In this document: one piece after another, positions 20,082-25,199 of the stretch
How the letters are laid out: the number at the start of each line of letters is the position of its first letter
Position numbering within the stretch: position 1 is the first letter of the stretch
Source of the DNA: Bacteroidales bacterium
GTDB lineage: Bacteria > Bacteroidota > Bacteroidia > Bacteroidales > Prolixibacteraceae
Assembly (NCBI GenBank): GCA_012522835.1
Contig: JAAYJR010000567.1
Location: 1 to 33,773 of the forward strand
Length of the DNA: 33,773 bases
Direction of reading: 5' to 3'
Notes under the pieces: model-generated
What the model saw: only the letters and a program-made list of their open reading frames with translations
Told to the model about the DNA's origin: nothing
Database searches by the model: none
Position numbers and translations under genes: made by a program

Positions 20082-23000
20082 TTAATATTCATCCCAGCTT
20101 TTAATGGATATATCTTTCAGATCATATTTACAGATTGCATAAACAAAGGCACTTGCCACTTTTGAATTTGTTATCAAAGGAATATTAAAATCAACCGAAT
20201 TTCTTCTGATTTTGTATCCATTGCTTAGTTCCCTCCTGGAATAGTTTTTTGGTATATTGATCACCAGGTCAATTTTTCTTTGCCTGATATAATCTATCGT
20301 ATTTGGTTTACGGTCTTCTTCATCAGGCCAATGCAACAGTGTATTGATAATCCCGTGATCCAGCAGGAATTTGTGTGTACCCTCAGTGGCAAAGAGGTTA
20401 TATCCTTGTTCTATGAGCATTTCCGAACTTTTTAGCAGTTCTGCTTTTGATTTCAACGGGCCTGATGAAATGAGGATATTTTTGACGGGTAATTTATACC
20501 CTACAGATAACATGGAAGTCAGGAGCGCTTCATAATAGGTTTCCCCTATACAGCCGACCTCGCCGGTTGAAGCCATATCCACACCCAGTACCGGATCTGC
20601 ATTTAGCAGCCTGGAAAATGAGAACTGGGGTGCTTTAACACCTATATAATCCAGCTCAAACAATGACTTATCGGGTTTTGCTACCGGGATTCCAAGCATT
20701 ACCCGGGTTGCTATTTCTATGAAATTTAGTTTCATAACTTTTGAAACAAACGGGAAGCTTCTGGAGGCCCTTAAATTACATTCAATTACCTTTATATCAT
20801 TGTCTTTTGCAAGAAATTGCATATTAAACGGCCCGGTTATTTCAAGTCCTTTTGCAATTTGCCGCGCAATTTTTTTGATTCTCCTGATAGTCTCTATATA
20901 CAATTTTTGTGGAGGAAAAACAATTGTTGCATCTCCCGAGTGAACTCCGGCATACTCAACATGTTCAGAAATCGCATAGGCTATTATTTCACCATCCGAG
21001 GCAACTGCATCAATTTCAATTTCCTTTGCCTCTTCTATGAATTCAGATACGACTACCGGATGTTCTTTTGAAACATTTGCTGCCATTTCAAGGAAATTTT
21101 TCAGCTGGTCAGAATTGGAGACTACATTCATTGCAGCACCCGAAAGCACATAGGAGGGCCGGATTAATACTGGATATCCGACCAGGTCAGTGAATTTTAT
21201 TATCTCTTCAATAGTTGATAACTTCGCCCATCGTGGCTGGTCAACTTCCAGTTCATCAAGTAGTAAGGAAAATTTTTCCCTGTCTTCAGCGTTGTCAATT
21301 TTTACAGGGGAGGTGCCAAGTACCGGGACTTTCCGGTTATATAGTTTCATGGCCAGGTTATTGGGTATCTGGCCACCCATGGAAATTATCACTCCGAAAG
21401 GATTTTCCAGTTCAATTATATCCATCACTCTTTCAAAGCTAAGCTCGTCAAAATAGAGCCGGTCGCATATATCATAGTCTGTGCTTACCGTTTCCGGATT
21501 GTAGTTTATCATTACCGAGCGATAATTCTCTTTTTTGATTGTATTTATTGCATTTACACTACACCAGTCGAATTCAACCGAACTACCTATACGGTACGCT
21601 CCCGAGCCTAGTACAATAACTGATTTGTTATCATTTAAATATTCTATATCGTTAACACTTCCATGGTATGTCAGGTATAGATAGTTAGTCATGGCAGGAT
21701 ATTCACCGGCTAATGTATCTATCTGCTTAACTACAGGTTTAATGCCTCTGCTTTTCCTGTAATCCCTCACTTTGAGAAGGTCATTGTGAATTGCGTTGTC
21801 GGGACTTGCAAAAATTAGCCTTGCAATTTGGAAATCAGAAAATCCTGTCTTCTTTACTGTTAACAGCAGGTCATCGGAGATCTCCTCCAGCTTGTCAATT
21901 TCAACTAACCGGTTTTTAATATTGTAAATATTTTTTAATCTGCTCAGAAACCAGGGGTCAATTTTGGTTTTATAATAAATATCATCTATAGAGTAACCCC
22001 GGTTGAAAGCTTCTGCAATTGCAAATATCCTGCGGTCGGTAGGATTGATTAGTTCAGAATCAATTTCTTCTGCATTTAGTTCAATTTTGTTTCCGACAAA
22101 CCCATGCATGCCCATTCCAACCATTCGGATACCTTTCTGAATTGCCTCTTCGAAGTTTCTCCCTATAGCCATAATTTCACCCACGCTTTTCATGGAACTA
22201 CCTATAAACTTTGAAACACCATAAAATTTATTGAGATCCCACCGGGGTATTTTAACTACACAATAGTCGAGTGCAGGTTCAAATGCGGCAGTAGTAACTT
22301 TGGTTACTGTATTTTTTAACTGGTGAAGCCCGTAACCGAGTGCAAGTTTAGCTGCAATAAATGCAAGAGGGTAACCGGTGGCTTTTGAAGCCAGGGCTGA
22401 TGACCTTGACAATCTTGCATTAACTTCAATTACCCGGTAATCCTGCGACTGAGGATCAAGTGCAAATTGGACATTGCATTCACCAATCACACCGACTCTT
22501 CTGATAATTTTGATTGAGATAGCCCTCAGTTTGTGATATTCGGCATTTGAAAGTGTTTGTGAAGGGGCAACGACTATGCTTTCTCCGGTATGGATACCGA
22601 GAGGATCAAAATTCTCCATGTTGCATACAGTAATGCAATTGTCGTAACGATCGCGAACAACTTCATATTCGACCTCTTTCCATCCCTTAATAGATTCTTC
22701 TATAAGTATTTGCGGAGAGTAGGAAAATGCTCTTGATGCCAGTGATTCCAGCTCTTTTTCATTTTCACAAAACCCACTGCCTAATCCTCCAAGTGAATAG
22801 GCAGCCCTGATGATTATCGGGAATCCTGTTTTTTTTGCGGCCTCTCTTGCTTCCTCCATATTTTTAGCAGCAATGCTTTGGGGGGTTTTTACCCCGATTT
22901 CTGCAAGCATCTTGGCAAAAATGTCCCTGTCTTCGGTGTCAATGATCGACTGAACGGGAGTACCCAGTACTTCAAGGTTATATTTCTCAAATATACCAGC

Positions 23001-23309
23001 TTTATAAAGTTCAACACCGCAGTTAAGCGCTGTTTGTCCACCGAATGCCAGAAGTATTCCCTGGGGATTTTCCTTTTTAATGACCTCTTCCACAAAGAAA
23101 GGTGTAACGGGCAGAAAATATATTTTATTGGCAATGTCTCCGGAAGTTTGGATAGTTGCTATATTCGGATTGATCAGTACTGTTTCAATACCCTCTTCTT
23201 TCAAAGCCTTCAAAGCCTGCGATCCGGAATAGTCAAATTCACCTGCCTCTCCGATTTTTAGAGCTCCCGAACCGAGAATGACCGCTTTTTTTATTTTTTC
23301 TTTTATCAT
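20082..23309 (-). CDS. carB: Carbamoyl-phosphate synthase large subunit
   Basis: 1075 aa, duplicated ATP-grasp halves: KAVILGSGALKIGEAGEFDYSGSQA, KEVEYEVVRD, EVNARLSRSSALASKATGYPLA; second half SVIVLGSGAYRIGSSVEFDWCSV. Confidence 0.98.
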   Translation of the reverse strand: MIKEKIKKAVILGSGALKIGEAGEFDYSGSQALKALKEEGIETVLINPNIATIQTSGDIANKIYFLPVTPFFVEEVIKKENPQGILLAFGGQTALNCGVELYKAGIFEKYNLEVLGTPVQSIIDTEDRDIFAKMLAEIGVKTPQSIAAKNMEEAREAAKKTGFPIIIRAAYSLGGLGSGFCENEKELESLASRAFSYSPQILIEESIKGWKEVEYEVVRDRYDNCITVCNMENFDPLGIHTGESIVVAPSQTLSNAEYHKLRAISIKIIRRVGVIGECNVQFALDPQSQDYRVIEVNARLSRSSALASKATGYPLAFIAAKLALGYGLHQLKNTVTKVTTAAFEPALDYCVVKIPRWDLNKFYGVSKFIGSSMKSVGEIMAIGRNFEEAIQKGIRMVGMGMHGFVGNKIELNAEEIDSELINPTDRRIFAIAEAFNRGYSIDDIYYKTKIDPWFLSRLKNIYNIKNRLVEIDKLEEISDDLLLTVKKTGFSDFQIARLIFASPDNAIHNDLLKVRDYRKSRGIKPVVKQIDTLAGEYPAMTNYLYLTYHGSVNDIEYLNDNKSVIVLGSGAYRIGSSVEFDWCSVNAINTIKKENYRSVMINYNPETVSTDYDICDRLYFDELSFERVMDIIELENPFGVIISMGGQIPNNLAMKLYNRKVPVLGTSPVKIDNAEDREKFSLLLDELEVDQPRWAKLSTIEEIIKFTDLVGYPVLIRPSYVLSGAAMNVVSNSDQLKNFLEMAANVSKEHPVVVSEFIEEAKEIEIDAVASDGEIIAYAISEHVEYAGVHSGDATIVFPPQKLYIETIRRIKKIARQIAKGLEITGPFNMQFLAKDNDIKVIECNLRASRSFPFVSKVMKLNFIEIATRVMLGIPVAKPDKSLFELDYIGVKAPQFSFSRLLNADPVLGVDMASTGEVGCIGETYYEALLTSMLSVGYKLPVKNILISSGPLKSKAELLKSSEMLIEQGYNLFATEGTHKFLLDHGIINTLLHWPDEEDRKPNTIDYIRQRKIDLVINIPKNYSRRELSNGYKIRRNSVDFNIPLITNSKVASAFVYAICKYDLKDISIKSWDEY

Positions 23310-23320
23310 AACCTCAATTA

Positions 23321-24403
23321 TTATTGACCTTTATTTCTGACTGTATTAATAAAATCATCAAACAGAAAATCAGTATCAGTTGGCCCGCTGGATGCTTCAG
23401 GGTGAAACTGAGTTGAGAAAAATGGTTTGAATTTATGTCTGATACCTTCATTGGTATTATCGTTTACATTGGTGAATAACGGTTCCCAGTCGTCAGGTAA
23501 AGTATCTGTATCAACTGCATATCCATGATTTTGGGAAGTTACATAGCACCTGTTTGTTTCATAGAGAATTACAGGCTGGTTATGGCTACGATGGCCGTAT
23601 TTAAGTTTATATGTGTCTGCACCTGCTGCGCGTGCCAGCAACTGGTTGCCCAGACATATGCCCATAACAGGAGTGTTTCCTTCCAGTAATTTTTTAATAT
23701 TTATGATGGTTTCGGTGCACATTGCCGGATCACCCGGACCGTTTGAAATAAATACTCCGTCATATTTTTCCCCGGAAAAATCATAATCCCATGGAACCCT
23801 TATCACTTTTACACCTCTTTTTAGCAGGCACCGAATTATATTGTTTTTAACACCGCAGTCAATTAAAAGCACCTTGAAAAGTCCGTCACCATATTCTTCC
23901 CTTTTTTTACAGCTGGCAACAGCAACGAGGTTCTCTTTATTTGGGTCATAAAAGTCTGTTTTTTCATCTCCAAATTCAATTTTACCGAGCATAGAGCCTT
24001 TTTCTCGAAGAATTTTGGTCAATGCCCTGGTATCTATACCAAAAAGTCCGGGAACCATGAATTCTTTCAGCCAGTCAGACAAGCTTTTCTCTGCATTCCA
24101 ATGGCTGTATTCAAATGAGTAATCAGAGATAATAAGGCCTTTTATATGAAGCTTATCAGATTCATAATATTTATGGATTCCATGTTTCTTCTTGTCTGAA
24201 GGTACGCCGTAATTTCCAATCATGGGGTAGGTAGATACAAGTATCTGTCCTGTGTATGAGGGATCAGTCAGGCTTTCGGGATAACCTGTCATTGCAGTGT
24301 AAAATACCACTTCCCCTGCTGCCGATACTTCACTTCCAAATGATTTACCCCAAAAAACTGTGCCATCTTCCAGGGTAAGTTTTGCTTGCTTTATTACTTC
24401 CAT
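23321..24403 (-). CDS. carA: Carbamoyl-phosphate synthase small subunit
   Basis: LEDGTVFWGKSFG, YPESLTDPSYTGQI, class I amidotransferase VFISNGPGDPA, GICLGNQLLA, FSTQFHPEASSGPTDT. Confidence 0.98.
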   Translation of the reverse strand: MEVIKQAKLTLEDGTVFWGKSFGSEVSAAGEVVFYTAMTGYPESLTDPSYTGQILVSTYPMIGNYGVPSDKKKHGIHKYYESDKLHIKGLIISDYSFEYSHWNAEKSLSDWLKEFMVPGLFGIDTRALTKILREKGSMLGKIEFGDEKTDFYDPNKENLVAVASCKKREEYGDGLFKVLLIDCGVKNNIIRCLLKRGVKVIRVPWDYDFSGEKYDGVFISNGPGDPAMCTETIINIKKLLEGNTPVMGICLGNQLLARAAGADTYKLKYGHRSHNQPVILYETNRCYVTSQNHGYAVDTDTLPDDWEPLFTNVNDNTNEGIRHKFKPFFSTQFHPEASSGPTDTDFLFDDFINTVRNKGQ

Positions 24404-24417
24404 ATTAAACGGTTGTT

Positions 24418-24459
24418 AAAAAAAAATGCGTTTGGTCCTTTGCAGGTCGAAACGCATTT
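24418..24459 (-). terminator. Terminator-like hairpin in the carA 5' leader (candidate attenuator)
   Basis: Minus strand AAATGCGTTT-CGA-CCT-GCAA-AGG-ACC-AAACGCATTT-TTTTTT: 10-bp perfect outer stem, GCAA loop, U-run; ends 14 nt before the carA ATG. Confidence 0.7.
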
Positions 24460-24536
24460 AAGTCAGTTGACTGTTTTGATAAATGATTAATTTCCTAATA
24501 CAGGCTGAAATCATGATGTTAATCTTAAATATGACA

Positions 24537-24544
24537 CAAAAATA
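24537..24544 (-). promoter_or_regulatory. Candidate -7 element for carA (TATTTTTG)
   Basis: Plus CAAAAATA = TATTTTTG on minus, matching TAnnTTTG; implies a leader of roughly 125 nt. Confidence 0.4.
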
Positions 24545-24565: not shown

Positions 24566-24594
24566 TTGTAACTGGAGAAAAATGTATAAATTTG
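24566..24594 (+). promoter_or_regulatory. Bacteroidota -33/-7 promoter for argR (TTG-N18-TAAATTTG)
   Basis: TTG 24566-24568, TAAATTTG 24587-24594. Confidence 0.6.
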
Positions 24595-24602
24595 CACTAT
24601 AA

Positions 24603-24620
24603 AATGAATAAATATTCATT
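24603..24620 (+). promoter_or_regulatory. ARG box (ArgR operator) AATGAATAAATATTCATT
   Basis: Perfect arms AATGAAT/ATTCATT around AAAT; matches the ArgR consensus TGAATwwwwATTCA and overlaps the predicted start site. Confidence 0.75.
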
Positions 24621-24713: not shown

Positions 24714-25199
24714 ATGAAAAATCGGGTGTCGCGACATTGAGAGATAAGAAAAATAATATCAAGGGGCAACATCAGGAATCAGGAGGAACTGTTGTCGGCT
24801 CTCATGGTTAAAGGATATGATATGACACAGGCTACATTGTCAAGGGATTTGAAATTTTTACAGGTAGCCAAGATGCCACATCCTGTAAAAGGTTATGTAT
24901 ATGTCATTCCTGATATTGGTAAGAGTGAAGTAATGACAGAAGGAGCAGCCGACAGTTTTCTTGCTGAAGGGTTCAGGGGATTAAATTATTCTGGAAATCT
25001 TGCTGTTATGAAGACCCTGCCCGGTTATGCCAGTAGTTTTGCTGCTGTAATAGACAGCGCTAATCCCTATGAGATACTGGGAACTATAGCCGGAGATGAT
25101 ACTATTTTAATTGTCAGACGCGAAGGGACATCAAAAAATGATTTATTGAATGCTTTAAAATCGATAATGCCAAAATTGAAAGATAAATTGCATGAATAA
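24714..25199 (+). pseudogene. argR: Arginine repressor ArgR with in-frame TGA at codon 9
   Basis: One continuous frame MKNRVSRH*EIRKIISRGNIRNQEELLSALMVKGYDMTQATLSRDLKFLQVAKMPHPVKGYVYVIP...; TGA at 24738-24740. The ORF track shows only the part after the stop (TTG 24792). Confidence 0.85.

Follow-up and report, generated by a model that had tools for sequence, protein, structure and literature searches.

A candidate ribosome-coupled attenuator in the carAB leader of Prolixibacteraceae, with a predicted separate arginine input

We found that the leader of the carAB operon in a Bacteroidales bacterium of the family Prolixibacteraceae is probably a ribosome-coupled transcription attenuator, with the pyrimidine pool as the inferred signal and with arginine acting apart from it through ArgR, a reading drawn from the comparison of sequences. 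The locus lies in a stretch of 33,773 nucleotides (contig JAAYJR010000567.1; the whole stretch is called the window here), and carAB and its leader are on the minus strand. A promoter, a short open reading frame (ORF), a hairpin and a T-run follow one another ahead of carA, and these elements, their order and their conservation are established by sequence comparison. We infer termination at the hairpin, translation of the ORF, control of the hairpin by the ribosome and the role of the pyrimidine nucleotide pool as the signal. A preliminary description of this DNA had proposed premature-termination control of carAB, a proposal that the comparison with relatives supports.

In the mechanism that we propose, RNA polymerase would start just past the -7 box and transcribe the short leader ORF and then the intrinsic terminator. 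With a ribosome close behind, its footprint on the last codons of the ORF would cover or melt the 5' arm, the hairpin would be blocked, and the polymerase would continue into carAB. If instead the polymerase had a long lead over the ribosome, the hairpin would form and transcription would end 14 nt before carA. Low UTP would slow the polymerase and thus favor coupling and readthrough, and arginine would be sensed separately, via ArgR at the promoter.

Layout of the locus and arginine boxes

The putatively regulated gene, carA (23321 to 24403; Pfam CPSase_sm_chain and GATase), codes for the small subunit of carbamoyl-phosphate synthase, and 11 bp past it begins carB (20082 to 23309, 1075 codons), the large subunit in the same operon, named by its sequence and position. 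The carA promoter is marked by a Bacteroidota -7 box, TATTTTTG (24537 to 24544), recognized from sequence and conservation. The leader ORF, MISACIRKLIIYQNSQLT followed by a stop (18 codons, 24458 to 24514), runs from an ATG at 24514-24512 to a TAA at 24460-24458 that overlaps the hairpin foot. The candidate attenuator hairpin (24424 to 24459), identified by sequence, fold, family conservation and covariation, consists of a 5' arm AAATGCGTTT (24459-24450), a 3' arm AAACGCATTT (24433-24424) and an apical part CCT-GCAA-AGG (24446-24437), in which 24446-24444 pair with 24439-24437 around a loop at 24443-24440. The T-run of the intrinsic terminator has nine T (24418 to 24426), and the carA ATG, at 24403, lies 14 nt past it. 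When the sequence was re-read, every element and coordinate given in the preliminary description proved correct, including the -7 box upstream of the hairpin and the 14 nt that separate the T-run from carA. As that description had also stated, no minus-strand gene needs the leader terminator, since argR, upstream of carA, is divergent and transcribed away.

The argR gene itself (plus strand, from 24714) shows a TGA in frame, at codon 9 (24738-24740; MKNRVSRH*EIRK), a position occupied in relatives by a sense codon, mostly Leu. This TGA is either a nonsense mutation or an assembly error, or else the gene starts downstream.

Of 88 leaders, 87 have a TAnnTTTG box ahead of the hairpin, at a distance of 35 to 120 nt, where shuffling predicts 7.5; a box of this kind between the hairpin and carA was seen in 1 of 82. 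Because the promoter box sits upstream of the hairpin, the latter belongs to the carA leader RNA; a start site downstream of the hairpin, which had been named as one of the observations that would speak against attenuation, finds no support. As in pyrBI-type attenuation, a predicted intrinsic terminator thus stands in the leader between the promoter box and the first gene.

Farther upstream there are two predicted ARG boxes. The first, AATGAATATTTATTCATT (24603 to 24620), is a predicted ArgR operator half that matches TGAATWWWWATTCA at 14/14 positions, and the second, read from the sequence 3 bp past it, is the degenerate TAGTGCAAATTTATACAT (24582 to 24599). Across the family, such tandem boxes occupy constant positions, with one ending ~60 nt and the other ~39 nt ahead of the -7 box. 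Most genera have the element at ~60 nt, and in other genera the best box is often ~39-42 nt upstream, that is, in the second slot. A predicted box pair at the promoter is the mark of an ArgR regulon member, and these predicted boxes would provide a separate arginine control at the carA promoter. In Escherichia coli, the carAB promoter P2 is controlled by ArgR through ARG boxes. There, as here, the boxes are a tandem pair spaced by 3 bp; unlike those of P2, the boxes described here lie ~40-75 nt ahead of the -7 box and not over it.

Conservation of the hairpin

Loci of carA were gathered across Prolixibacteraceae, the family to which GTDB assigns the window. The same terminator is found upstream of carA in all 90 loci with a readable carA start region, from 23 genera, near the start of the gene in 84 and farther upstream in six, all belonging to one genus. 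Of 41 family genomes searched with a covariance model, 40 gave the site, and the sole genome lacking a match to it also lacked a carA match. In the genome of the window, the leader site ranks first (E 5.9e-4; next match 0.31), with no convincing second copy of the hairpin, and in relatives nothing but the carA leader matches strongly. Over 396 genomes of the phylum the model gave weak matches but no clear further case, and carA leaders from outside the family, within the order and class, lack the hairpin with the exception of one look-alike. This look-alike, ATGCATTTATCC..GGGTAAATGCATTTTTT, is found in a genome of another family (L114), ~35 nt before carA and downstream of a TAAATTTG box.

Conservation of the stem with compensatory changes, the check that the preliminary description had suggested, was indeed observed: two-sided changes occur at 10 of 14 pairs, a value that none of 500 shuffles reached, both in a MAFFT alignment and in a model-fitted alignment, the latter being fitted to the structure and taking in a few opposite-strand matches. 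The distance between the arms also differs among relatives. Since arm spacing varies and pairs co-vary, the hairpin acts as RNA, and the variable distance and compensatory pairs led us to reject a DNA operator as an explanation of the inverted repeat. The folding energy of the hairpin averages -17.8 kcal/mol. Compared with its shuffles, the leader as a whole is just moderately more stable (z -1.9), but the conservation of the hairpin goes far past chance. On the carA side, the T-run is exactly 8 T long in 73 of 88 relatives and 6-10 in all; on the side away from carA, the runs are much shorter, with 5 or more in 11 of 88. This placement of the T-run fits a terminator for carA-directed transcription. 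A terminator of an upstream or antisense gene was discarded, given that there is no minus-strand gene upstream and that the long T-run faces carA.

A search of Rfam at gathering and relaxed thresholds found no family or riboswitch matching the leader, and a resemblance to GibS (26 bits, against a gathering score of 115) was treated as chance. Together with the ~110-125 nt that a terminated leader would measure, this weak resemblance is what favors the idea that the hairpin is the end of a stable, trans-acting small RNA produced from the leader. We consider it highly improbable, since the GibS match falls far under the threshold and outside the arms the leader shows no conservation from genus to genus.

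The arms, AATGCGTTTG and CAA(A/G)CGCATT with a T-run of ~8, are near-invariant across the 23 genera, and the apical stem and loop vary in sequence and length among genera. This near-invariant primary sequence of the lower stem exceeds what a plain terminator needs and is a point against our main reading. A specific RNA-binding protein or a ligand could read the conserved lower stem and set termination, with the ORF being secondary, in keeping with a lower stem that hardly changes and an apical part that drifts. However, no competing antiterminator is conserved, no Rfam family is matched at the gathering score, PyrR was found above the cut-off in none of 21 genomes, and the conserved ORF would be left unexplained; hence, it seems unlikely that such a factor governs the hairpin.

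Two short motifs were also noticed here. A TGCG at the hairpin foot (24456-24453, minus strand) is near-invariant in the window and its relatives, is similar to the core of the consensus for elemental pauses in E. coli and might be a timer of ribosome arrival. In the carA leaders of three genera (g6, g7 and g15; for example L057 and L066), an ACGC directly before the hairpin could pair with the GCGT of the 5' arm, possibly as a small antiterminator, which is not seen in other genera.

Leader ORFs at carA and pyrB and the nature of the signal

The preliminary description had pointed to a mini-ORF ending at the 5' arm and termed its coupling to the hairpin speculative; the comparison among relatives now argues strongly for it. 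We looked for an ORF that begins with ATG or GTG in a range of 30-60 nt ahead of the hairpin and stays open into it; this range for the start codon was picked after viewing the data, although a wide range gave the same result. Such an ORF is carried by 74 of 88 leaders, against 25.7 in dinucleotide shuffles, and with one leader per genus by 18 of 22 genera, against a mean of 5.9 and a maximum of 12 in 2000 shuffled sets. When all 61 sense triplets were tried as the start, GTG came first and ATG second in over-representation. The spacing from start to hairpin has a mean of 42 nt and an SD of 6.7, a figure narrowed by the limit of the search range; the -7 box is 5 to 65 from the ORF start. Most of the carA leader ORFs have 10-30 codons, and their stops are spread between 8 nt ahead of the hairpin and sites inside or past it. 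Work in E. coli shows nearly complete repression of a terminator when the stop codon directly precedes it, and recovery once the distance exceeds ~30 nt (PMC4824070); all the leader ORFs described here end within that repressing range.

The peptide, on the other hand, drifts. Substitutions are near neutral (39 synonymous versus 29 expected), no amino acid is common to all leader peptides, and the run of regulatory codons or universal regulatory codon typical of trp/his-type leaders was not found. Since the start and the openness of the frame are kept while the peptide drifts, what appears to be maintained is the start of a ribosome and its arrival at the hairpin. The conserved position, the drifting peptide and the lack of a universal amino acid together point to ribosome-coupled attenuation like that of pyrBI, of which a leader ORF reaching a putative terminator is the sequence hallmark.

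An amino acid, arginine above all, could instead be the signal if ribosomes stalled at regulatory codons set the hairpin. Both carAB and the divergent cluster serve arginine, and the leader peptides are basic, with 10.7% Arg versus 7.8% in other frames. Nevertheless, several peptides have no Arg before the hairpin, such as MAEKVYLKISIKNN and MDKKKKNKISDNT, and for that reason we rejected attenuation by Arg codons, to which we assign only a very slight probability. Moreover, with a ribosome stalled upstream the terminator would be able to form, so that starvation would reduce expression, and arginine is already covered by the ARG boxes.

Which signal the coupling would report is best approached through composition and through pyrB. 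At 45% A and 24% T, the carA leader is rich in A and shows no obvious U-rich pause tract, although such a tract is expected for UTP sensing. For this reason the main rival to our reading is that the ribosome-blocked terminator is real and reports general translation or growth rather than pyrimidines, which would also agree with the unconstrained peptide sequence. A parallel candidate attenuator is present in most relatives, however, at pyrB, whose product opens the pyrimidine-specific branch, and the pyrB leader of relatives is more pyrimidine-rich than that of carA; with these points against it, we regard a gate of this general kind as possible, though rather doubtful.

When pyrB was taken as an independent test, this second conserved terminator, AAACCAACAG..CTGTTGGTTTTTTTTT and variants, turned up in 68 of 88 loci, ~35 nt ahead of the gene, and it is present in most relatives (18 genera). 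In 55 of these 68 leaders an ATG frame from at least 100 nt upstream is open into the hairpin (6.7 expected), and in 59 of 68 the ATG is 4-7 nt past a -7 box. This ORF, of 50-80 codons, usually runs through the terminator ACCAACAG/CTGTTGGT with its T8-9 (L278, L288, L298, L300 and others). It is this second candidate ORF-terminator attenuator in relatives that ties the carAB design to pyrimidines. The pyrB gene in the genome of the window does not have the second terminator, so for this organism the support from pyrB is by analogy with its relatives.

Many pyrB leaders also show a small upstream hairpin, GGTGA..TCACC, and then a pyrimidine tract, AAATTTTTTCCC (g18 and g21, for example L278, L306 and L298), the tract being possibly a pause site. 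In several other families of the order, GCGAC...GTCGC hairpins with a T-run are found before pyrB (L393, L394, L397, L401, L406, L411, L416); these are perhaps another pyrB attenuator or the terminator of an upstream gene.

Relation to known systems and significance

The closest known counterpart is E. coli pyrBI, where coupling over the leader pyrL is established and tight coupling prevents the terminator (PMC5021804). As in pyrL, a leader ORF runs into an intrinsic terminator ahead of a pyrimidine gene, and the pyrB leader of the relatives resembles it closely, with an ORF of 50-80 codons through the terminator and a pyrimidine-rich tract. The carA leader differs in belonging to another phylum, in having an ORF mostly of 10-30 codons that starts ~42 nt before the hairpin, in being A-rich with no clear U-rich pause, and in that the hairpin sequence itself is conserved. 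PyrR-dependent pyr attenuators also control pyrimidine genes by termination; they go with a pyrR gene in the genome, which was not detected above the cut-off among the 21 genomes.

Other carA leaders have been described. In Pseudomonas aeruginosa, carAB is reported to combine arginine control at the promoter with a pyrimidine control that may work by attenuation, and to have a leader peptide (PMC4997734, citing Kwon 1994), a combination like the one proposed here, although the two leaders are unrelated in sequence and come from different phyla. The carA motif of Polynucleobacter and its betaproteobacterial relatives, a proposed riboswitch with 30 representatives (PMC8632094), is likewise a structured element directly upstream of carA; unlike that extended imperfect hairpin, the present leader matches nothing in Rfam. 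Within Bacteroidota, leader-peptide attenuation has been suggested before amino-acid operons of Flavobacterium (PMC9723704), and leader-like short ORFs are found in Bacteroides thetaiotaomicron (PMC7366714). A search of the open-access literature gave no account of attenuation at pyrimidine genes in Bacteroidota.

Regulatory coupling of ribosome and polymerase outside Proteobacteria is in question, since runaway transcription of the Bacillus type would disable such attenuators. The main conserved feature of the putative attenuators described here is an open frame ahead of the terminator, and the family-wide carAB and pyrB elements offer a direct, easily tested case of coupling in Bacteroidota. 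The putative carAB attenuator gives Prolixibacteraceae a likely pyrimidine control where PyrR was not found. We see about even chances that the family controls pyrimidines with no dedicated sensor, the spacing between ribosome and polymerase at two unrelated attenuators (carAB and pyrB) reporting the nucleotide pool. If this reading is true, such control by two leaders would have arisen as a counterpart independent of the pyrBI control of enterobacteria, and it would speak for functional transcription-translation coupling in Bacteroidota.
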